From Protonemura montana (taxonomy: Eukaryota > Arthropoda > Insecta > Plecoptera > Nemouridae): a stretch of 64,000 nucleotides of DNA. The translations under genes and the position numbers were made by a program. This document shows, piece after piece, positions 25,292 to 64,000 of this stretch. Numbering within the stretch: position 1 is the stretch's first letter; each line of letters begins with the position of its first letter. Under the pieces are notes generated by a model. It was not told the origin of the DNA. It worked only from the letters and a program-made list of their open reading frames with translations, and ran no database searches. The stretch is from contig OX387603.1 in NCBI GenBank assembly GCA_947568835.1, positions 18,624,651-18,688,650 on the forward strand, written 5' to 3'.

Positions 25292-26079
25292 TTAAAAATT
25301 GGGACAGAATTCTTTAATAGTATAGAAACTTTTATCAAGTAAGAATGATTTTAATTTGCATTTGAACTCTTTGCCGGTAATACATCTGAGATAGGTGGGT
25401 AGCGCATTGTTTAGTCGTATCCCTGCCTGTATAGTATGTTGCTGAGTGGTTGACCTCAGCCGAAATTGGGTTTGTATTAGTCTTGGGTCACCTATCGTCC
25501 TTGCTCTTGTTAAAATGCCCGCACTTGACTGATTGTCTTGTGTTTTAAAACTGTCCTGGTCCCTGGCATACAAAATCACATAAAAAATGTACAAACAAGG
25601 CAGCGTTAAAATTTTCAGTTTTTTAAAATGGGTCACACAAGTATCTTTAAAAAAAACTTCCGCACAAGGATTAAAGCTAGCACCTGCCAAATATTTTACG
25701 GCACGTTTCTGCAATATAAATAGCCTTTTTGCGTGTCGCGTACTCCCCCATAGGATGACACCATATTGAAGCCTTGCTTGGATATAGCCATAGTAAAGAG
25801 TTAATGCCGTTGAAAGCTTTGAAATTTCCATGATCTTTTTGATTAGAAAACAGCCTGCTGCAATTTTTTTGGCTAACTTGTCCGTATGGGCGCCCCAGTT
25901 GAGTTCGCTGTCTATAGTGAGACCTAAGAACACCGTTTGTTCTACTATCGGCACGTTATTCCCCTTGAGTTCAATTTTCGCTGGTTCCATAATTTTCCTA
26001 AATTTCGTAGAGAACTGGATGCCGAGCGTTTTGTCAATGTTGATGAAAAGGTCATTAGACTCACAATAGTCGATCATAT
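25292..26079 (-). pseudogene. Reverse transcriptase C-terminal fragment (jockey/CR1-like)
   Basis: An uninterrupted frame of about 261 codons starts at the 5' truncation point and ends at TAA, reading MIDYCESNDLFINIDKT at its start. It shows the late reverse transcriptase block FLGLTIDSELNWGAH, then DKLAKKIAAGCFLIKKI, LYYGYIQARLQYGVILWG, LFILQKRAVKYLAG and KILTLPCLYIF. These are typical of the thumb and C-terminal region of arthropod jockey-superfamily LINEs. The palm motif with the catalytic aspartates and the endonuclease domain are missing because of the truncation, so it is dead. The open frame continues upstream into unit 3 sequence up to 26146 by chance, adding about 22 residues that do not belong to the LINE. 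The absence of stops suggests a young insertion. Confidence 0.88.
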
Positions 26080-26703
26080 GACCTGCAGCAGTTTGGTAAT
26101 ACTGTTTATGCATGCCTATGAAAGTTATTGAAGAAATTGAGCACAAACGCTGTTATTTACGTTCGTTTTAAGTGAAATAGAAATAATTTTGCAAAAAGTT
26201 TGACAGATGCATTCATTTGTTTGGTTTTTTGACCACTGCAGGGTGAACGAATTCTTAAACTTATCTTTGCGGCAGTGCATTCAGGATATTCAAACGTCAA
26301 TGTCAATGTCAACGTCAATGTCAAATTCTTTTCAAAATCTCTGGAACTGAAGGGAAATAAATGACTGAACTGAAATATTGTTGGTGTCTTGGCTTAGCAA
26401 GATTGGCTAGCCCAGATTGTAAAAGGTATTTCACAAGTTTCACTCTCTAAGAAATATTTCAAGAAATCATACACGGAAATCTTTTGACAGCCAACTTCGT
26501 TTGTTTTCGAAATTGTCATCGTGGTCAATTTGGAATTCACAGAGTTTCCACAATGCAGTGACCCCAAGTGAAATAAGCGGCAAATTTCAAATAAAATAAA
26601 TGGGGGTACTTTTGGTTGTGGTCCCATTAGAGGCTTTACATGAAAACCAAAATGCACAATCCCTCAAAATCTTATGGTGCCGTTAGGCATCGGGTTCTGC
26701 TAG
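26080..26703 (+). mobile_element. Tandem element unit 3, right part
   Basis: Resumes at GACCTGCAGCAG exactly where unit 3 was interrupted and runs to the same hairpin and GGGTTCTGCTAG end, followed by T. The hairpin here reads GGTGCCGTTAGGCATC. Confidence 0.75.
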
Positions 26704-54455: not shown

Positions 54456-55481
54456 TTTTATCTCCCGATCGGTCCTATTTTGAGGCGTTGCCTATGCCTA
54501 AAATTCAAAGCTATATTTCATAAAATTGTGTCAAGTAGCTGTGAACAAATGACGTTGTCAGGAAATTTAGTTTGCCTGTGAAAACTTTGAAGCAAGTCGT
54601 GGTACGCGTGAGTGCCACGGGACTGCCTATACGTACGGTTAATCCAACCATGACAAGTTTCAACTGAAATAATCGTCTAAAACGAGGCGAAAATTTGTCT
54701 CATCGTACTAGGCGAGTAGCCGACAGAAGAGTATCGCCTGAAACCTACTGCATCGCTGTGCAAGTGACGTCACAACACGTGCTCGATCGACCCCGCCTCG
54801 AACATTCGATCAACTGAAGCTCGGCTCCCATTAGCTGACCGGTTTTCGAAGTGGATTAAGGTGATAACAGCAATGGCGTCCACGGCTGCTATCACAGACC
54901 AAACGTTTTCCAGGCATGCAGATGCTAAAGAACTTCCAATTCTCGTACTTTAATTGCGGATGTTTAATTAGATTAATTTTAACTATGTTAGCATTTGTTA
55001 GATGTGAGAGTTCTTGACCAAATCAAGTACCACAGCAGGTCCAATTGCTTACGAGCCCTCCTAGAATCGTCTCACCGAACGGTTTGGCGTGCTGAAAACA
55101 CCAGTTCTCGTCAGATCACCGACGTTAAGCAACAATGCGCTGGGTCAGGTATTGGATGGGTGACCATCATACACATGATTAGTTATGTTCGGGAGAGAGG
55201 TTAGATGAATGAAAGTTAGTACAGCAACTTCATTAGCCTTGCTTATCAAACACTCGACTGCATGGATTTGTGGAGGAATCCTGCTGTTCGAGTTACACCT
55301 TCCTGAAAGCCTTCCTGAAAAATACCTAAATTTCAGCCGAACTTCTCCATTTCTATTCTCACCGTTTTCACAATGCTAAATGCCAGTTAAATAAGCAGGT
55401 TAAGATGAAAACAGAAGTATCTGATTAGGTTTAACCATGGGGATGAGTCTCATAAGTTAAGTTGGACATATTAAAACTGCC
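54456..55481 (+). repeat. Left arm of a large inverted repeat
   Basis: About 1,026 bases whose reverse complement is at 57098-58123. The outer end is TTTTATCTCCCGATCGGTCC and the inner end TTGGACATATTAAAACTGCC. It contains a 5S-derived SINE head and body. The arms differ at scattered positions and small indels, so they are not an exact artefactual copy. Confidence 0.9.
55079..55300 (+). mobile_element. 5S-derived SINE within left arm
   Basis: 5S-like head (CACCAGTTCTCGTCAGATCA, CGACGTTAAGCAAC, ATTGGATGGGTGACCATCAT) and body; its 3' tail is absent, replaced by the TTCCTGAAAGCCTTCCTGAA region of the arm. Confidence 0.85.
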
Positions 55482-56737
55482 TGTTGGAAGAAATTTTGCC
55501 CAAAGTTGTATATGCACTTCCAAGTAAATGCCATAAAGGAAAGAAATAAGATTTACAGTTTTGTCAAAGGTTGACAAACAAACCGTTTCCAAACTTTTAA
55601 CTCTTGTTTATTTTTATCTTTTTTAGTTGATGGGTTTAATGCTTGTTGAATGGCAAACACTATAATACTTGTAGGCAATTTTTATCACCAACTCTCCCAT
55701 CCCGATGGGGTGGTAATACAATTCTACCATGTAGCAAGCGTGTTTACCTTATTCAGTGCGAAAAGATAAGATCTGCTTCAAAAAGTTTTAATGACGGAAA
55801 AAAATTAGATACAATAATTTAAATTCAATATGAACATAATATAAAATTCTTGTGTTGTAGACATAAATAAACAAAATAAAATAACGACGGGTCGTCTTCT
55901 GGACGCTACGTCGTTATCATTGCGCGATTAAAGTGCTCAATTACACTAGTTTACCCCGAAGTTCTTAATTCACTGAGGTCTGCCACCCATTTCTCTTGTA
56001 TTTATAGCAAAATTACATTGTTTCATCATCAAAAGTCACCTTTAAATTCACTGCCATCCAAAAATAAACCGTCGTCAAAATGAATTTCTGTTCATTTGGT
56101 TTTATCAAGTGTGGCTTTAGCACCTAGTCACTGACAGTCCCATTGGGTGATACATCTCAGTCACAAAGATCAAAATAATTCTCACAATGCTTTACTTTTT
56201 TAAACAACTTTCAACCCTCGTATGGACCATGCAGTACTCATAGTGCATGGTGGGATAAGGGCAAATTACCACCCTTTTTTATGACTAGAACCCGTAATAA
56301 TTATGAACATACTGTTTGAAAGCTCAGAAATGGTAGTAGATATATCAGCTTAGCTAAAAATTCATTTGTATTCAAAAGTTAAAGCGCACATGCATCGGTA
56401 TGCCCTCAAAGACAGCGAGCGAGCGAACTGATTATTGTGGTGTAATAATATGTAGCTTCTTTTACCGCCAATTCACAAATATAAGCGCAAGCAATTTGAG
56501 GTATGCGTAAGTTTTACCGCCCTTGGAATCGGCAGAAAAAAATCCAGAAATGGTGGTTATGGTGTCTTACCACATGTGTTACCAACTTACCACCATGCCT
56601 CTTAGAGTTAGCAAACAAAAAACATTTTCTTATTAGCAGTTGCCAACACTGCAAAATCGGCTCTTATATTGAAGAGTTAAAGGATATATTCATAAAGTAG
56701 ATTCATATGATAGTATAGCTGTCAGAGCCGTACTGTT

Positions 56738-56862: not shown

Positions 56863-57097
56863 TTCAAACATTAAAAAATAAACACTCTATTAAGGCTTTG
56901 TTATTTTATCTTTCAAAGGGCAATTACACATATTCTCTCATTTAATTGATCAAAATAGTGTCATTTAAATGGAAAACGCTACATTTGTATTGCATTCTAG
57001 AGAGGAAAGGTGGGTGACCATCCAACCTTTCTAGCGAAAAAATCGCGGCGTAATTCTATGAAACTGGGATCCTATAAGAGTTGTTACGGGGAGTACG

Positions 57098-58123
57098 GGC
57101 AGTTTTAATATGTCCAACTTAATTTATGAGACTCATCCCCATGGTTATACTTAATCAGATACTTCTGTTTTCATCTTAACCTGCTTATTTATCTGGCATT
57201 TAGCATTGTGAAAACGGTGAGAATAGAAATGGAGAAGTTCGGCTGAAATTTAGGTATTTTTCAGGAAGGCTTTCAGGAAGGTGCAACTCGAACAGCAGCA
57301 TTCCTCCACAAATCCATGCAGTCGAGTGTTTGATAACCAAGGCTTATGAAGTTGCTGTACTAACTTTCATTCATCTAACCTCTCTCCCGAACATAACTAA
57401 TCATATGTATGATGGTCACCCATCCAATACCTGACCCAGCGCAGTGTTGCTTAACGTCGGTGATCTCACGAGAACCAGTGTTTCCAGCACGCCAAACCGT
57501 TCGGTGTGACGATTCGAGGAGGGCTCGTAAGCAATTGGACCCGCTGTGTGACTTGATTTGGTCAAGAACATTCACATCTAACAAATGCTAACATAGTTAA
57601 AATTAATCTAATTAAACATCCGCAATCAAGTACGAGAATTTGCAGTTCTTTAGCATCTGCATGCCTGGAAAACGTTTGGTCTGTGATAGCAGCCGTGGAC
57701 GCCATTGCTGTTATCACCTAGATCCACTTCGAAAACCGGTCAGCCAATGGGAGCCGAGCTTCAGTCGATCGAAAGTACGAGGTGGGGTCGATCGAGCACG
57801 TGTTGTGACGTCACTTGAACAGCGATGCAGTAGGTTTCAGGCGATACTCTTCTGTCGGCTACTCGCCTGGTACGATGAGACAAATTTTCGCCTCGTTTTA
57901 GACGGTTATTTCAGTTAAAATGTGTCATGGTTGGATTAACCGTACGTATAGGCAGTCCCGTGGCACTCACGCGTACCACGACTTGCTTCAAAGTTTTCAC
58001 AGGCAAACTAAATTTCCTGACAACGTCATTCGTTCACAGCTACTTGACACAATTTTATGAAATATAGCTTTGAATTTTAGGCATAGGCAACGCCTCAAAA
58101 TAGGACCGATCGGGAGATAAAAT
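57098..58123 (-). repeat. Right arm of a large inverted repeat
   Basis: Reverse complement of 54456-55481 with scattered differences. Outer end CCGATCGGGAGATAAAA. Open frames on it (for example 57640-57918) are not conserved in the left arm and are not called. Confidence 0.9.
57270..57502 (-). mobile_element. 5S-derived SINE within right arm
   Basis: The inverted counterpart of the SINE at 55079-55300, with GATCACCGACGTTAAGCAAC and TTGGATGGGTGACCATCAT on the minus strand. It was duplicated with the arm rather than inserted separately, since the flanks match too. Confidence 0.85.
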
Positions 58124-58154
58124 TCTTCAAATTCTTAAAATAAAATTCTTTTGA

Positions 58155-58330
58155 AATAAGGGACCTGGACCAATACTTTGTTCGCTGCCAACAAAAACTA
58201 AAAATTGATTTCGTTGCGTGGAGCGAAACAAGCACCCTGTTACGGAATGTCCTTCACAGAGGCGACAGCGAATGTTATTTCCAGGGGGGTGCAAGCGCAC
58301 CTCCTTGCACCGCCCTACGGACGCCCATGC
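58155..58330 (-). mobile_element. hAT-like element fragment
   Basis: Inverse of the 63702-63885 fragment: GGGCGTCCGTAGGG, TGCACCCCCCTGGAAATAAC, GACATTCCGTAACAGGGTGC and TGGCAGCGAACAAAGTATTG in order on the minus strand. The order and wording are similar to what encodes the C-terminal region of ZMYM1-like hAT relatives, but here it is too short and broken to translate. Confidence 0.55.
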
Positions 58331-58513
58331 CTACTTCCCCAAAATTCTCCCTCGTGATTCCGATTCCGCGAACAGAATTTTACACTTAATGAAGTTTTAG
58401 TTTTCCTACCGTTCGAACCTAACTTTACGTAAGTCAGTTATGTTTCGGGAGCGAATCTAGTAGGGTGGTTTGTTAGCCCGAGCGTTTTTGTTCAGTGTGT
58501 TGATTGTGGGAGT

Positions 58514-58924
58514 ATGGATCTACGCAAATTTTTTAGTGCGAGTGTGAAGAGAAAGGCGAACGATGACGCGCGTGAAATTTCGGACAGTCATGGCAACAGC
58601 GTTCGCAGTATTGAAAGTGCATGTGCATCTACATCGACGACTGCGTATTCCGAAAATCCAATGCCAGACTTTGAAACTGAATGTGATCTAGGTCCTCAAG
58701 CTGCTTTGGATATTGGCCACTTCGTAAATCAGGACCTAACCGACAAACTGAGACACACGCTGGTGACAAAACCATGGTCTCCGAGTGCATACAAAGCTGA
58801 CGTGCAGTGTCGGACTGGCCAGGGCAGCCAGGCGGCAAATACCGCCGGGGCCTCCAGCCGGCCGGGGCCCCTGGGGCCCCCATTTACAATAAGGAAGTTT
58901 TTTAAAACATTTTTTAATTTATAG
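58514..58924 (+). pseudogene. hAT-type transposase N-terminal fragment
   Basis: An ATG frame begins MDLRKFFSASVKRKANDDAR, a start typical of hAT-superfamily transposases of the ZMYM1/TTF-type zinc-finger group. It continues to DIGHFVNQDLTDKLRHTL and TKPWSPSAYKADV, which matches the beginning of the TTF-type domain (D-I-G, then the P-W-x-P block). After about residue 97 the frame leaves the family and enters GC-rich sequence starting CAGTGTCGGACTGGCC at 58805, which looks like the terminus of a second transposon. The zinc ligands, catalytic core and hAT dimerisation region are missing, so it is a dead fragment. The frame after the junction is meaningless. Confidence 0.65.
58805..58890 (+). mobile_element. 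Terminus of a second DNA transposon
   Basis: CAGTGTCGGACTGGCCAGGG begins abruptly inside the hAT frame, followed by GC-rich GGGGCCTCCAGCCGG sequence. CAGTG-type starts are common hAT termini. The other end was not found nearby, so either it is truncated or the element extends into the AT-rich DNA to the right. Confidence 0.5.
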
Positions 58925-59137
58925 TCATTTAATTATGTTGTCTTAATGTTGCAAATAGCCAGTGCTTGTTATCATTGAGCCACGCTGCCCTGATGGCAAC
59001 AGGTTGGTGGAAGTCGTATATAAACACTTGATTTTAGACTTGGTAAAAAAAATCATGAAAGTTATATTTCGGATCATCTCTCCCCATCCCTTCACTTGAT
59101 CCATGTTCCAGGTGAAGGGCTTTGAAAGACAAAAATA

Positions 59138-59210
59138 GGAGGCGCCGTGAAGCGAACTGCGGACCTCACGCATTGGAAGTCACGACCATCCCACTGCGCT
59201 ACGAAGGACA
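59138..59210 (-). pseudogene. tRNA-like element T1
   Basis: Minus strand: A-box-like CGTAGCGCAGTGGGATGG, then B-box-like GGTCCGCAGTTCGCTTC. Stems are only partly paired. Upstream on its strand lies a block at 59247-59279 shared with T8 (ATAAAACAAGAT and AAATCACTTCTAG). Confidence 0.5.
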
Positions 59211-59619
59211 CGTACGCTGTTATTGATTTGTTATCAACATGCAAGTCAATAAAACAAGATGTGAATAAATCACTTCTAGCAGTAATATTTATGTGTGAAT
59301 CCTGATGGGTAGGCCACTCATCGTACACGTGTGCACTGACGTCGTGTTTACAGTCCAGGCGTTGGGTGTGCAGTCACTTCAATTTCTACTCAAGAAATAT
59401 TGAAAAATTAATGGACGTTTTTTACGTTTCTTACGTTTATTCTTGATTTTTGAAGATTCGCCCATACTGTGGTCTATGGGGTAGTTTGCACCCCCGAACA
59501 CGATGGGCTATTATGGGCACGATTCCGTTATTTTATAGCTTCAAGGTTGGCAGCTCAGCAAGGTGGGTACACGGGTTACCGACCGATGGCCGTGATTTAT
59601 CGACATTTTAATTGATCAA

Positions 59620-59875
59620 GTACATTTGATATCCAACAGATTGCGTTTGCGTTCCCTGTGTGCTTTAACTCGACTGCTGGTTCGGTGATACTTGTTTGGT
59701 ATGGTTGACCAGGGGACCTGTCTGCGAGCAACGGGGTTCGACTGGCGTTCCTCCAGTCGGAATTCAAGGCTTGCATTTTCGCGTTAGATCGTGGCAACTG
59801 GTGAAAGCCCATTTTTTGGAGTGGCCGCGTGCCTCAGCACTGCTTGGTGTTGGGGTCCGGTCCGGCATTTACACA
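59620..59875 (+). repeat. Dispersed repeat R3, copy 1
   Basis: Homologous to 62925-63180 (same strand) and 61810-61955 (opposite strand). Shared blocks include GGCGTTCCTCCAGTCGG, GATCGTGGCAACTGGTGAAA and GCCCATTTTTTGGAGTGGCC. It may be part of a SINE body, since GGGGTTCGACTGG resembles a B box. Confidence 0.75.
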
Positions 59876-59917
59876 TTGTGTAAGAGCGAAGCCTTCTTTC
59901 TCTGTTAGCGCATGGTT

Positions 59918-59953
59918 GATGTGGTGGTGGTGGTGGTGGTGGTGGTGGTGGTG
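59918..59953 (+). repeat. GTG microsatellite
   Basis: A run of GTG triplets that decays to the right into GATGGT and GTTGGT units over the next 60 bases. Confidence 0.95.
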
Positions 59954-60371
59954 ATGGTAACGTTGATGTTGGTGATGTTGGGATTGATATGGGTAATGTT
60001 GGTGGTTTTCGTGCTGTTCGTGGTAGTAATGTACGTTAGCTTCGTTATATTACTTGTCGTGATGTTTATTAATATCTGTATACATATCGCATGATGATAT
60101 ACTTTACTTTTAATTCCGAATAACTCGTGTATATATTAATACTTCCTCCTTTTCCTACTTCTTCTGATATAATTACTTTATGTAATTTTTCGTACTTAAG
60201 TTACATTTTCTTTTAGTAACAGTAGCCAACTTTTCATTTAGCGTTTCCCACCATGGCCAATATTGTTTCGTCGATGCTATCACCCCCTGGTAGCCAGGCT
60301 AGGAACTAAAACATAATTTGAAATTTTGTTTCTTGCCCTGGAGGATGAGTGGTGTGATTAAAAAAAGATGT

Positions 60372-60450
60372 AGGCAACGAGGATCGAACGCAGGACGTTT
60401 GATACCTGATGCACCCACATAAAACGCTCGACCACAAGACCCGCTCTCCA
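60372..60450 (-). pseudogene. tRNA-like element T2
   Basis: Minus strand: A-box-like TTGTGGTCGAGCG and B-box-like GCGTTCGATCC, followed by a T7 run that could stop Pol III. The region between the boxes is long and does not fold into a clean anticodon arm. Confidence 0.5.
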
Positions 60451-60729
60451 TGATACGTTTTTTTGGGATACACAAACTGTTTAACTGTGACAACTCCGTC
60501 AAATAATCCGAAAAAAATCTCAAACACTGCCTCCATGATTTTCAATAAAAGATATTTCGACGAAGCATTATAAACATCAGCTTCAGTATTGCCGATCATC
60601 GTACAAAATAAAAAATACGTTCGAAGTCTTGTACAGTTTACTCATACTGGATCTTTCACTATGTATGAACAGACTGTCGTCCAACACCCCTTGGACACCC
60701 AGGACGACGGTGCCTTACTCTGGCGCTGG

Positions 60730-61024
60730 TCCTTATGTCTAGCATCAAGCGTATAGGAACGATTATAATGAGTGTTACGCATCATCAGCGCCACCTGTTG
60801 ACAGGATTTTGTACTACACTTTGGACAAATATGTTGATATTTTCCTGCTGTATTTCCAAGTTATTTTCCGACTAGTTAATCAATTAGATTAAAAATCAGA
60901 CTTGGCAAATGTCTTCAATTTTTACAAGTCCAGAGTATAGTACAAAATCCTGCCAACAGGTGGCGCTGATGATGCTTAACACTCATTCACACTCGTTCCT
61001 ATATACTTGATGCTAGACGTAGGA
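60730..61024. repeat. Inverted repeat with 97-bp arms
   Basis: Arms at 60730-60826 and 60928-61024 are inverted copies with scattered mismatches (shared: GTCTAGCATCAAG, GCATCATCAGCGCCACCTGT, CAGGATTTTGTACTA). The spacer is about 101 bases of AT-rich DNA. It ends 28 bases before the palindrome array. Confidence 0.9.
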
Positions 61025-61052
61025 GTCAACGCGGGACACGGGTGGCACGCCC

Positions 61053-61282
61053 GGGTGCGTGAGCGACTGGCGCTTCGCGCCAGTCGCTCACGCACCCTGC
61101 TGGACCCTGGCGCTTCGCGCCAGGGTCCAGCAGGGTGCCGGTGCGCCCGTGCACCTGAGCGCGCTTCGCGCGCTCAGGTGCACGGGCGCACCGGTGGGCG
61201 TCCAAGCGCGCGGAGCGCGCTTGGACGCTACAAATTTGCGGAGCGCGACTGGCGCGAAGCGCCAGTCGCGCTCCGCAAATTT
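61053..61282. repeat. Array of five perfect GC-rich palindromes
   Basis: Five hairpins follow each other almost without spacing, each a perfect stem with a 3-base loop. H1 is 61053-61097 (21-bp stem, loop TTC). H2 is 61092-61138 (22 bp, TTC; its stem overlaps the end of H1 by six bases). H3 is 61138-61194 (27 bp, TTC). H4 is 61198-61228 (14 bp, GGA). H5 is 61232-61282 (24 bp, GAA). Every centre is GCGC-NNN-GCGC. The stem sequences differ from each other except for a shared GACTGGCGC in H1 and H5. The block is extremely GC-rich in an AT-rich region. Open frames through it are a by-product of composition and are not called. Confidence 0.97.
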
Positions 61283-61344
61283 CCTGGTGTCTACACTACG
61301 CGCTCAAAAAAAAAAAATAAGGGGTGTGAAACTGCAGTAGTTTA

Positions 61345-61430
61345 GCGGACGGGATTCGAACCCGGGACCCCGGCAATCTCATGATTAATCACAAGAGGTA
61401 GTGCCTTGTACCGCACGACCTCGCGGACAT
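61345..61430 (-). pseudogene. tRNA-like element T3
   Basis: Minus strand: A-box-like GAGGTCGTGCGGTACAAGGC and a perfect B box GGGTTCGAATCCC. Acceptor-stem partners do not pair (GTCCGC occurs on both sides), so it is not a functional tRNA as it stands. Confidence 0.55.
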
Positions 61431-61530
61431 CTAGCTTCCTAGGCATTTTTATGGCATATAATTTCTTCAGACTGCAGCTACCATGTGTGAATAATTTGAA
61501 TGTCGTATTCCAATAGCAAAAATATCCTGT

Positions 61531-61617
61531 CGGTGAGCGGGATCGAACCCAGGTCACAATATAGCTTCATCGTTCCGAAGTAACGACATGTCCATTGTGC
61601 TACGCAGACGGTCGCCC
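61531..61617 (-). pseudogene. tRNA-like element T4
   Basis: Minus strand: A-box-like GCGTAGCACAATGGACA, an anticodon-like arm TCGTT-ACTTCGG-AACGA (loop reading TTC but with C where U33 should be), and B-box GGGTTCGATCCC. The intervening region is longer than in a tRNA. Confidence 0.55.
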
Positions 61618-61809
61618 CTGTTATGGTTAAGTGAATATATTTAATTTCATATTTGATGTCCCTGTTTACCGGGTTGACTATAGGCACATGTCACTGACGG
61701 CACTCAATGTATACTACGGTTCGGAGTCGCATTCTTCTTTGCGTTTCAGTGAACCATCATTTAAGAAATTCAAGATATTATGACCGACTATGACCGACTT
61801 ACGCAGCGA

Positions 61810-61955
61810 GCAAGAACTGGACCTGACCCCCGCACCAAGTAATGCAGGGGCAATCGTCCACTCCAAAGATACGGGCTACCACCAGTTGCCGCGATCTAGC
61901 GTGAAATTGTCAGCTGATAGCGCCCTCTGCAGGGACGCGAGCCACACCCAGTTGC
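61810..61955 (-). repeat. Dispersed repeat R3, copy 2 (inverted)
   Basis: Minus strand reads GATCGCGGCAACTGGTGGTA, TTTGGAGTGGACGATTGCCC and CTTGGTGCGGGGGTCAGGTC, matching copy 1. The open plus-strand frame across 61790-62263 only reflects this repeat and T5. Confidence 0.7.
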
Positions 61956-61989
61956 TGGTTTGTCGTTCTTTTTTTTTTTTGCCTTCTTA

Positions 61990-62168
61990 TCCGACCCCGG
62001 CAGCATGGAGATCGCTTCACACTACATCGCCTCTGCCATGCACTATCAAAGATTGTGCAAGCTATGTCGTGAAGAACAAAAAGCGGAGCGGACAGGACTC
62101 GAACGCGGTCACATCCGGATTGCGCTTCCGAGGAGCGACTTTTCCAACCGGCCATCGAGACGAGATGG
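61990..62168 (-). mobile_element. tRNA-derived SINE with head T5
   Basis: Minus strand: A-box-like CTCGATGGCCGGTTGG, an anticodon-like arm CGCT-CCTCGGA-AGCG, B-box GCGTTCGAGTCC, then a T5 run and a tail GGCAGAGGCGATGTAGTGTG plus AAGCGAT. The same tail appears on the plus strand at 63440-63500, which supports a mobile unit made of a tRNA-like head and a fixed tail. Confidence 0.6.
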
Positions 62169-62329
62169 TTATCGATGGAACAAAGAGATATATGAATAGC
62201 AGAAGACGACTACAGTGTAATAATGAAAAGAGTCAAAAATACTTTGAGAGTTTCGATGGATGAACGAGCGATGCAATATTTGCAGCATTCAATGAATGCC
62301 AGTCGCCACTTGATGAAGAACAAAATGAG

Positions 62330-62412
62330 GATCGGGCAGAATTCGAACTCGAGACATTTACGCAGTGTCCCCATTAAGAAGCGGCCGTACCTCACGGCCA
62401 CTGAGACGGTTT
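62330..62412 (-). pseudogene. tRNA-like element T6
   Basis: Minus strand: A-box-like CTCAGTGGCCGTGAGGTA and B-box GAGTTCGAATTC. Past the B box it shares TTTTGTTCTTCA with T5, which suggests a common origin for the two. Confidence 0.5.
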
Positions 62413-62542
62413 GCTATACCAGAGGAAATAACATATACTTGAATAGCAACTGGCGGGGATCACGGTACACCATCGAGAAGAGATGTTAGTTTTCTCTGTA
62501 AAGATTAATACATATCCAGCAGTTTTACACACATGTGACTTA

Positions 62543-62636
62543 CCCGCTTCGAACCAGCGACCCTCTGCACCCTGGCGCTGAGCACGAGAGCGATCTTCAC
62601 TCGCCGCCGAATGGACGCTACGAAGACCGGCGAGAG
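62543..62636 (-). pseudogene. tRNA-like element T7
   Basis: Minus strand: A-box-like TCGTAGCGTCCATTC and B-box GGTCGCTGGTTCGAAGCG, with an expanded, GC-rich middle. Confidence 0.45.
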
Positions 62637-62694
62637 TTGCATGACAATACTTTAACAATCTTGGTAGGTGATTGATTCTTAGTTAAAAATAGTG

Positions 62695-62755
62695 CACCAA
62701 GCGGGATACGAACCCGGCCCCGTTTATCCTCCGTTCCACTTTCATCTACCTTTTG
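62695..62755 (-). pseudogene. tRNA-like element T8 (partial)
   Basis: B-box GCCGGGTTCGTATCCC on the minus strand; the 5' part is not tRNA-like. The block at 62765-62796 just upstream matches the block upstream of T1, so T1 and T8 share a flank. Confidence 0.4.
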
Positions 62756-62924
62756 CAGGAAGTAAATAAAACAAGATATAAAGAAATCACTTCTAGGCCA
62801 CAGTGCCCCTATTTACTCTTATTTATAGAGTTTATATCAAATGTATTATGCTATAGTCCGAGTATTATATTTTCGTTTACTCATAGTAAATATTCGTATC
62901 CAAAATAATATTTATAAATATCAT

Positions 62925-63180
62925 AATATCTAACAGATCGCGTCAGTGTGCTTGGAGTCAAGAGAACCTGGAAGCCCTCCTTCAGGCAACGGAGTTTGTC
63001 TGACGTTCCTCCGGTCGGGCTGTAAAACTTGTATCATCGCGTTCGTCTTGCTTTAATTAAGTAGAAAGCTGGTGAAAGCCCATATTCATGGAGTGGCTGG
63101 GCGCCGCTCGTCTTTTCAACCCTGGTGTTTCCTTCACCTTGCAGCCTACTGCAAATACAATGTTTAGGCATTCACGTGAT
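62925..63180 (+). repeat. Dispersed repeat R3, copy 3
   Basis: Same orientation as copy 1: ATATCTAACAGATCGCGTC, GACGTTCCTCCGGTCGG, AGCTGGTGAAAGCCCATATT and ATGGAGTGGCTGGGCG. Confidence 0.75.
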
Positions 63181-63439
63181 CCGATCCCAGTAACTACCGC
63201 ACGTGGATCGCTTAGCCTCACCAAACGACCACATGAGCCTGCGTGACTAATGACTACTTTTTTGAAGATAAGAATTTCTAGGTGTTGTTAGATGTTGAAG
63301 AAACGATTTTGTCACTTTTTAAAGGCTAGCGCCACCTGTTAGCAATAAAAAAAAATATTTTGACGGCGCTTTTCCGCATTGCATGAATCCTTGCATGTCC
63401 GCACATCAGATGTTCCTGTTGCTTGCAATGGGCTCCATA

Positions 63440-63500
63440 ATCTCTGATAGTGTAAGGCAGAGGCGATGTAGTGTGAAGCGATCGCCATTATGCCGGATGA
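63440..63500 (+). mobile_element. SINE tail fragment related to T5 element
   Basis: TCTCTGATAGTGTAAGGCAG and AGGCGATGTAGTGTGAAGCG match the inverted tail at 61999-62055. No tRNA-like head precedes it. Confidence 0.65.
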
Positions 63501-63701
63501 TGCATGATGCATGATTCGACGGATGGGGGGCTGGGCAAAAAAAATTACGACCTTATCACGTCACGAGATAAGCGCACCGGTTTGATGCACTCGTAAAAAT
63601 CCTCGGGGATGCCATTCACGGCATCCTCAGAGATGGTACATTGCAGACAGCACCGCACCACGCCAGACACCATAGCCAATGAGAGGGCTGACTTGACAGG
63701 G

Positions 63702-63885
63702 ATGGGTGTCCGGAGGGGGGTGCAAGGAGGTGCGCTAGCACCCCCTGGAAATATCGTTCGCCGTCGCATCAGTGCAGGACATTCCGTAACAGGGTGCTTG
63801 TATCGCTCCACGCTCCGCAATCAATTTTTTGTTTTTGCTGGCAGCGAACAAAGTATTGGTCCAGGTTCCTTATTTCAAAAGAATC
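63702..63885 (+). mobile_element. hAT-like element fragment
   Basis: GATGGGTGTCCGGAGGGGGG, then TAGCACCCCCTGGAAATATC, GACATTCCGTAACAGGGTGC and CTGGCAGCGAACAAAGTATT. Same order as 58155-58330 on the other strand; longest of the three copies. It continues to about 63885, with no element end identified before the window closes. Confidence 0.6.
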
Positions 63886-64000
63886 AGTAAGCTCACTCCT
63901 TGTTTTTGACGGCTATCTTACAGACACGAAACTCCGCGCCCATCCAAAGCCGAATTACTCATTTCGCTGTAGTGCTGGTCACCGAGAAACAAGTCCACTG

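Follow-up and report, generated by a model that had tools for sequence, protein, structure and literature searches.

Drosophila hairpin-RNA or endo-siRNA loci such as CG4068 give rise to tandem hairpins from one locus, and fold-back transposable elements are dispersed, palindromic sequences with terminal hairpins. As excerpts of two papers describe it, template switching in yeast homogenises the arms of inverted repeats and inverts their spacers, including TTC to GAA (Abraham and Hazkani-Covo 2021, PMC8604942), and RNA genes show patterns that fit template switching, with stems created and repaired, loops inverted and multiple compensatory changes brought about (Monttinen and Loytynoja 2022, PMC8794818). 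In this study, we report an array of hairpins with 3-base loops, located in a dispersed non-coding repeat of the stonefly Protonemura montana. The array exists in many copies, which show changes made on both arms of a stem and inverted loops, and some of which have decayed. We consider it probable that the hairpin of a commoner, single-hairpin module was multiplied, turned into palindromes and maintained by template switching.

Methods

The window is the whole stretch of 64,000 nucleotides that was analysed. Its segment 61033-61300 was used as query against the genome of the same species (258 Mb, 34 contigs), giving 287 first-look candidates, 40 of which were scored. The detailed comparison was performed on 31 copies, namely those with the 30 best BLAST scores and locus L064, and this choice makes the sample favour intact arrays. 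The flank tree of the 31 copies was based on 1995 columns and was star-like, with a mean distance of 0.098. Locus L010 entered the 3.2-kb comparison of the carrier repeat in the wrong orientation. Counts of G-U and A-C pairs omit loci L025 and L032 at hairpin P3.

Thirty-six single-hairpin modules were read and the identity profile was made on 21 distinct ones. Pair counts were made on 21 of the 36, the others being dropped as degenerate or variant by choice (six), as untabulated loci (five) or as near-duplicates (four). The yardstick for U1/U2 promoters comprised nine genes taken from 7 strong U1 and 10 strong U2 matches, with duplicates and others omitted.

Results and discussion

Five perfect hairpins in the window

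The hairpin block and the segment behind it consist of the following features.

61053..61097, no strand: hairpin P1, perfect, stem 21 bp, loop TTC
61092..61138, no strand: hairpin P2, perfect, stem 22 bp, loop TTC
61138..61194, no strand: hairpin P3, perfect, stem 27 bp, loop TTC
61198..61228, no strand: hairpin P4, perfect, stem 14 bp, loop GGA
61232..61282, no strand: hairpin P6 (the last), perfect, stem 24 bp, loop GAA
61283..61317, + strand: post-hairpin segment and A-run; many of the listed copies have an A-rich run behind the hairpin

The window belongs to a subgroup without P5, and its last hairpin is therefore numbered P6. An earlier sequence-only reading of this DNA had described five perfect hairpins at 61053-61282, and its stem lengths, its loops, the identical GCGC-NNN-GCGC centres of all five and the overlap of two of them were confirmed (P1 and P2 overlap by 6 bases; P2 and P3 have 1 base in common). 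The block is also GC-richer than its surroundings, as that reading had stated (0.72 against 0.45 in the flanking 200 bases per side). These five hairpins are the only perfect stems of 14 bp or more with a 3-base loop in the window. Chance palindromes were ruled out by shuffling the block 2000 times, which gave at most one perfect loop-3 stem of 10 bp or more against the five observed. The block was likewise unusually stable when folded as RNA (z = -21.4) or as DNA (z = -23.0), with none of 200 shuffles as stable in either case. The stems had been thought mostly unrelated in sequence, which is partly so; P1 and P6 have in common a 25-base apex in inverted orientation, and 17 of those bases are also present in P2.

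The absence of the block from any named repeat class was borne out, since an Rfam scan of the window at cut-off returned one tRNA and two 5S matches, none of them within the block. Below the cut-off the block hairpins resemble microRNA precursors, for example mir-9198 with 33.9 bits against a cut-off of 92; such sub-threshold matches appeared only at lax E-values, and a known RNA family was rejected as the identity of the array. Literature searches, including three with sequence words, found nothing on this element. The array is thus a repeat with no earlier description in the databases or papers searched, whose proposed mechanism is already known. The SINE relics suggested around the block were not established: B-box-like words do lie nearby on the minus strand, for example at 61362, and a search of 57000-64000 for an Rfam tRNA at E up to 5 yielded none, only a 15-base tmRNA piece of 12.4 bits. 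A relaxed ARAGORN run, in which tRNA-like arrays were considered, made 109 calls on 5 sequences and was useless as evidence.

Both 5S rRNA matches (55074-55194, + strand, 53.7 bits; 57385-57505, - strand, 52.1 bits) lie inside an inverted duplicate of about 1 kb (54456-55484 and 57095-58122, 96%), a third copy of which is located just outside the window. Elsewhere in the window, a 286-aa open frame on the minus strand (25292-26152) resembles the final part of a non-LTR reverse transcriptase.

Copies of the array across the genome

All 40 scored candidates matched the array, some of them partially, so that it is present at no fewer than 40 loci, the window included; the number is a lower bound because only 40 candidates were scored. 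The proposal that the same geometry had been made five times at this locus is contradicted by these loci, which have the array in whole or in part, and five independent events at the window locus were ruled out on the same ground. Identity to the window block was 95-97% at six other loci, 91% at L012 and 76-84% at most of the others, a few of which are partial. Five hairpins are found in the window and in seven other copies (L005-L012), and the sixth hairpin, P5, is readable in 22 of the 31 compared copies. The core pattern of P3 occurred at 36 loci when up to 3 mismatches were allowed, and at none in the reversed control.

The sequence-only reading had also directed attention to GCGC-NNN-GCGC palindromes across the whole assembly. 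Two forms are clearly in excess over the reversed control, GCGC-GAA-GCGC with 652 sites against 119 and GCGC-GGA-GCGC with 253 against 64, whereas the motif in general shows a mild excess (2962 against 2397). In one copy, L094 (C1:16009540-16009920), P5 is rearranged, with GC-rich reiterated GCGCGCTC and GCGCGCGAA steps, a growth that is possibly a template-switch expansion.

The single-hairpin module

A commoner module, different from the array, accounts for most of the remaining GCGC-GAA-GCGC sites that were read (L036-L063); in it a promoter-like block is followed by the body CACACGGGGTATAGGTGGGGTTTGGGGTCGTGGGAAC, one hairpin with 26-base arms and often an A-run. Its conserved body of 37 bases is found at 683 genome sites with up to 3 mismatches (reversed control 0), which makes the module a strongly conserved repeat that has no Rfam name; one module compared with Rfam, L042, reached 19.4 bits at best against a cut-off of 94. 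Among the 21 distinct modules, pairwise identity was highest in the body (0.92-0.95), reached 0.85 in the hairpin and dropped to 0.27-0.40 past +160 and to 0.37 upstream of -110, where the flanks are unrelated. The body also occurs in tandem arrays with steady periods, of 1752 bp at C1:30872630-30886646 and of about 818 and 976 bp elsewhere. The foreign origin that had been suggested for the block is unsupported, as the module body had no exact match in the prokaryotic or viral contigs searched, other sources being possible; the P3 core had no match in the viral contigs searched.

In the 21 copies counted, 98.3% of the pairs in the module hairpin are standard ones. Changes on both sides were seen at 7 of 23 pairs, a number reached by none of 500 shuffles of these chosen copies, and sliding the partner by 1-3 columns left 0-1 such pairs. 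A GA/GA internal mismatch (columns 67-68 and 86-87 of alignment A1) is present in all 21 hairpins, though not in every dropped copy, and is constant although the neighbouring pair covaries. Constant mismatches beside covarying pairs occur in protein-binding RNA motifs. The single-hairpin module therefore keeps specific imperfections.

The array stands behind the same promoter-like block and in the same position as the module's single hairpin, its last hairpin (P6) matches that hairpin, and the GA/GA mismatch is present at P6 in 3 of the 30 array copies scored (L024, L028 and L032). For these reasons we regard the array as the module hairpin in multiplied form, turned into palindromes, the direction of change presumably being from single hairpin to array.

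Promoter-like blocks

Two promoter-like blocks lie head-to-head upstream of the hairpins in the window, and this pair was found in many other copies.

60928..61025, + strand: promoter-like block upstream of the hairpins, conserved in the single-hairpin identity profile
60723..60826, - strand: second promoter-like block, head-to-head with the first and facing left (inverted repeats I1 and I2)

The right-facing block comprises CCAACAGGTGGCGCT, which we take to be CTCF-like, a PSEA-like CACTCATTCACACTCG at 60980-60995 and CTTGATGCTAGACGTAGGAG at 61006-61025; the last of these has 890 genome sites with at most 2 mismatches, and none in the reversed control. The left-facing block leads into a different conserved sequence beside the arrays (CCAGCGCC..., CCAGCGCCAGAGTA...).

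In the genome's own U1 and U2 genes, ACT is present at -59/-58 in all nine examined. The share of units in which a PSEA motif built from U1/U2 outscored mononucleotide shuffles (p<0.05) was 20 of 36 for single modules, 13 of 31 for arrays and 3 of 34 for other units; the median scores were 8.8, 6.3 and 6.3, respectively, as compared with 10.3-15.9 for left-out U1/U2 genes. By hand count, U1/U2-like spacing would put the start in the window at about 61040, roughly a dozen bases before P1. In six-hairpin copies such a start falls inside P1, which counts against an snRNA-like start. Identity with the genome's own U2 promoter was ruled out, as none of the six U2 loci read has the module motif. On the PSEA scores an snRNA-like promoter for the module is plausible, and the module may be transcribed from it. 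For U2, 23 matches above the cut-off were listed in the genome, ten of which reach 150 bits or more, and weak U2 snRNA-like copies cluster at C2:27.97-28.06 Mb. The U1 and U6 of this genome resemble those of arthropods.

Paired changes in the stem arms

In fixed windows, 69 of the 3416 arm pairs of the 31 copies were mismatched (P1 8/589, P2 8/589, P3 30/806, P4 3/434, P5 9/308 and P6 11/690), and a gapped alignment of the same copies gave 56 of 3411; 14 of the 30 P3 mismatches are in L025 and L032, nearly all due to an indel shift. The terminal branches of the flank tree predict about 252 mismatches against the 69 observed, or 163 against 59 without three long-branch copies, and in the remaining 28 copies the number of mismatches does not rise with branch length (r = -0.23). 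Between copies, the stem arms differ by 0.02-0.08 in five hairpins and by 0.13 in P5, against the flank mean of 0.098. Since the stems mostly diverge less than the flanks, a lower mutation rate or selection could explain part of the deficit of mismatches; the low divergence itself may reflect fewer mutations, selection or conversion.

The flank tree calls for a minimum of 31 changes on both arms and 58 on a single arm; with the 14 nodes of support below 0.95 collapsed and resolved for the fewest changes, the minima were 26 and 55. Adjacent bases were changed on both arms in P3 of L012 and in P4 of L101 and L102.

In the nine scored loci outside the detailed comparison, mismatches affected 39 of 760 pairs and gaps another 275; four of these loci (L095-L098) have broken or missing hairpins, and L094 with its rearranged P5 is also among the nine. 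Given such decay, correction does not rescue all copies and perfection is not permanent.

Loops are inverted in three hairpins

In the 31 copies the loops were distributed as follows: P1, TCC 27, TTC 3, TCA 1; P2, GGA 13, TCC 7, TTC 6, GAA 5; P3, TTC 22, GAA 9; P4, TCC 12, GAA 11, GGA 4, TTC 3, CAA 1; and P6 (30 copies), GAA 28, GGA 2. The middle base of the loop rarely changes, and a change from TTC to GAA is for this reason taken as a flip and not as three substitutions. The full flank tree requires at least 19 flips between TTC and GAA or TCC and GGA (P2 9, P3 5, P4 5), and at least 13 remain with weak nodes collapsed (P2 6, P3 3, P4 4). A sixth change in the P4 loop, to CAA in L013, is not a flip. 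Among the 31 copies no flip was found in P1, P5 or P6, and the single P6 flip is in the decayed copy L097, outside this sample. The loop is flipped between identical stems in L005 and L006 at P2 and in L006 and L008 at P3, while L025 and L032 differ by a P2 flip and one stem mismatch.

Loop orientation in P2 is near random on the flank tree (9 changes, shuffled mean 10.2), and the P4 loop states need 6 changes, the one to CAA included, where the minimum of 500 shuffles was 7. Conversion between copies could have spread flipped loops and would likewise give the P2 pattern. Plain template switching does not account for the lack of flips in P1 and P5 and the single one in P6.

What maintains the array

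The same changes on both arms, and spacer inversion with unchanged arms, are the signs by which template switching is recognised, and both were found. Both-arm changes together with loop flips favour templated copying, and fold-back or template-switch synthesis, the former among the origins that the sequence-only reading had put forward, is the best account of the perfect arms.

Selection at the RNA level is an unlikely alternative, in which the array would be the precursor of several hairpin RNAs and its stems would be kept by compensatory evolution. The constraint on the single-hairpin module, with its body identity, its both-side changes and its invariable GA/GA mismatch in the counted copies, is in keeping with such selection. 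In the array itself, compensatory substitution cannot invert loops, and the adjacent bases altered on both arms also speak against it. Broken pairs were G-U in 18 cells, A-C in 13 and of other types in 24; counted as distinct events, G-U arose 14 times and A-C 11 times. Wobble selection is thus not seen, and with so slight an excess of G-U over A-C the upkeep of the stems can be explained without RNA selection.

A second alternative is a fold-back or single-strand-DNA transposon, with the hairpins as the ends recognised by its enzyme. The evidence bearing on it comes from the repeat that carries the array.

58882..62795, + strand: dispersed non-coding repeat E, about 3.9 kb, which carries the array and is co-linear with the copy at C1:17.02 Mb

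Repeat E matches that copy at 91-93%. When L005, L013, L017 and L025 were used as queries, most of 30 loci aligned over much or all of 3.2 kb, and some were shortened or interrupted. The left end is visible in the window, L088, L090 and the C1 copy; the right end reads ...ATCAC(A/T)TCTA and is followed by several differing sequences among the copies read. A GC-rich piece of 77 bp (window 58805-58881), which begins CAGTGTCGGACTGG and which we assume to be hAT-TIR-like, lies left of repeat E in the window and L088; in L014, L025, L027 and L029 the start of this piece stands right of repeat E, in direct orientation. A clear target-site duplication at the ends of repeat E was not seen by eye. A 136-aa open reading frame (window 58514-58924, + strand), in our view resembling the start of hAT-type zinc-finger proteins, runs into repeat E.

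Dispersed copies, sharp in their ends in several cases, and the presence of GAA and GGA triloops would suit a transposon of this kind, d(GCGAAGC) being an extraordinarily stable mini-hairpin. Against it, about 2.1 kb of repeat E lies on one side of the hairpins and about 1.5 kb on the other, an internal position that also tells against the fold-back mobile element proposed earlier; repeat E has no ORF longer than 157 aa with ATG, GTG or TTG starts; and the single-hairpin modules share the block and hairpin within unrelated flanks. We therefore hold this explanation to be quite improbable. An assembly or library artefact is very improbable, for while polymerase fold-back during amplification would produce perfect palindromes and flipped loops, the array stands at 40 scored loci with differing stem and loop states, decayed copies exist, and the P4 loop states track the flank tree closer than any of the 500 shuffles.

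In the account that we prefer, the one hairpin of the module would have been multiplied to five or six, with its characteristic mismatches mostly lost and the stems turned into perfect palindromes. Template switching would then maintain the array: during DNA replication, the nascent strand would take the opposite arm or the sister strand as its template, one arm would be rewritten from the other and the same change would appear on both; such a switch would sometimes invert the 3-base loop.

A broader reading, offered tentatively, is that the module represents an undescribed family of structured-RNA genes, with some 680 body sites and snRNA-like promoters, one branch of which has become a self-copying palindrome array. 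Its hairpins would be rewritten from their own other arm, and the array could stay perfect and its loops toggle with no dedicated enzyme.

Although perfect palindromes would be expected to lack stability, arrays of five to six hairpins have persisted in dozens of copies. If template switching is the cause, the array would be a natural recorder of switching at replication, and since one genome holds many scorable copies, its rate and direction would become measurable in an animal. The copies could also serve to separate compensatory evolution by selection from templated repair.

Comparison with known systems

Both the CG4068-type loci and the array consist of tandem hairpins; those of the array have stems of 14-28 bp and 3-base loops. 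Fold-back elements are dispersed and palindromic, as the array is, but the hairpins of the array are internal. With snRNA-type genes, represented by the genome's own U1, U2 and U6, the module has in common a PSEA-like word upstream and a terminal GC hairpin, and by eye ATATACTT is common to the module and the U6 upstream region. Unlike those genes, the module has no Rfam match at cut-off and its PSEA scores are below those of U1/U2.

The closest likeness is to template-switch hairpins, which, in the excerpted accounts, share with the array the homogenisation of arms, multiple compensatory changes and inversion of the loop or spacer. The published examples in these excerpts are located in rRNA, microRNA or yeast coding genes (PMC8794818, PMC8604942), whereas here five to six hairpins stand in a row, at up to 40 loci, with flips mainly in P2, P3 and P4. 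We regard the array as a genuine and uncommon example, present in many copies, of a mutational mechanism that is already known.
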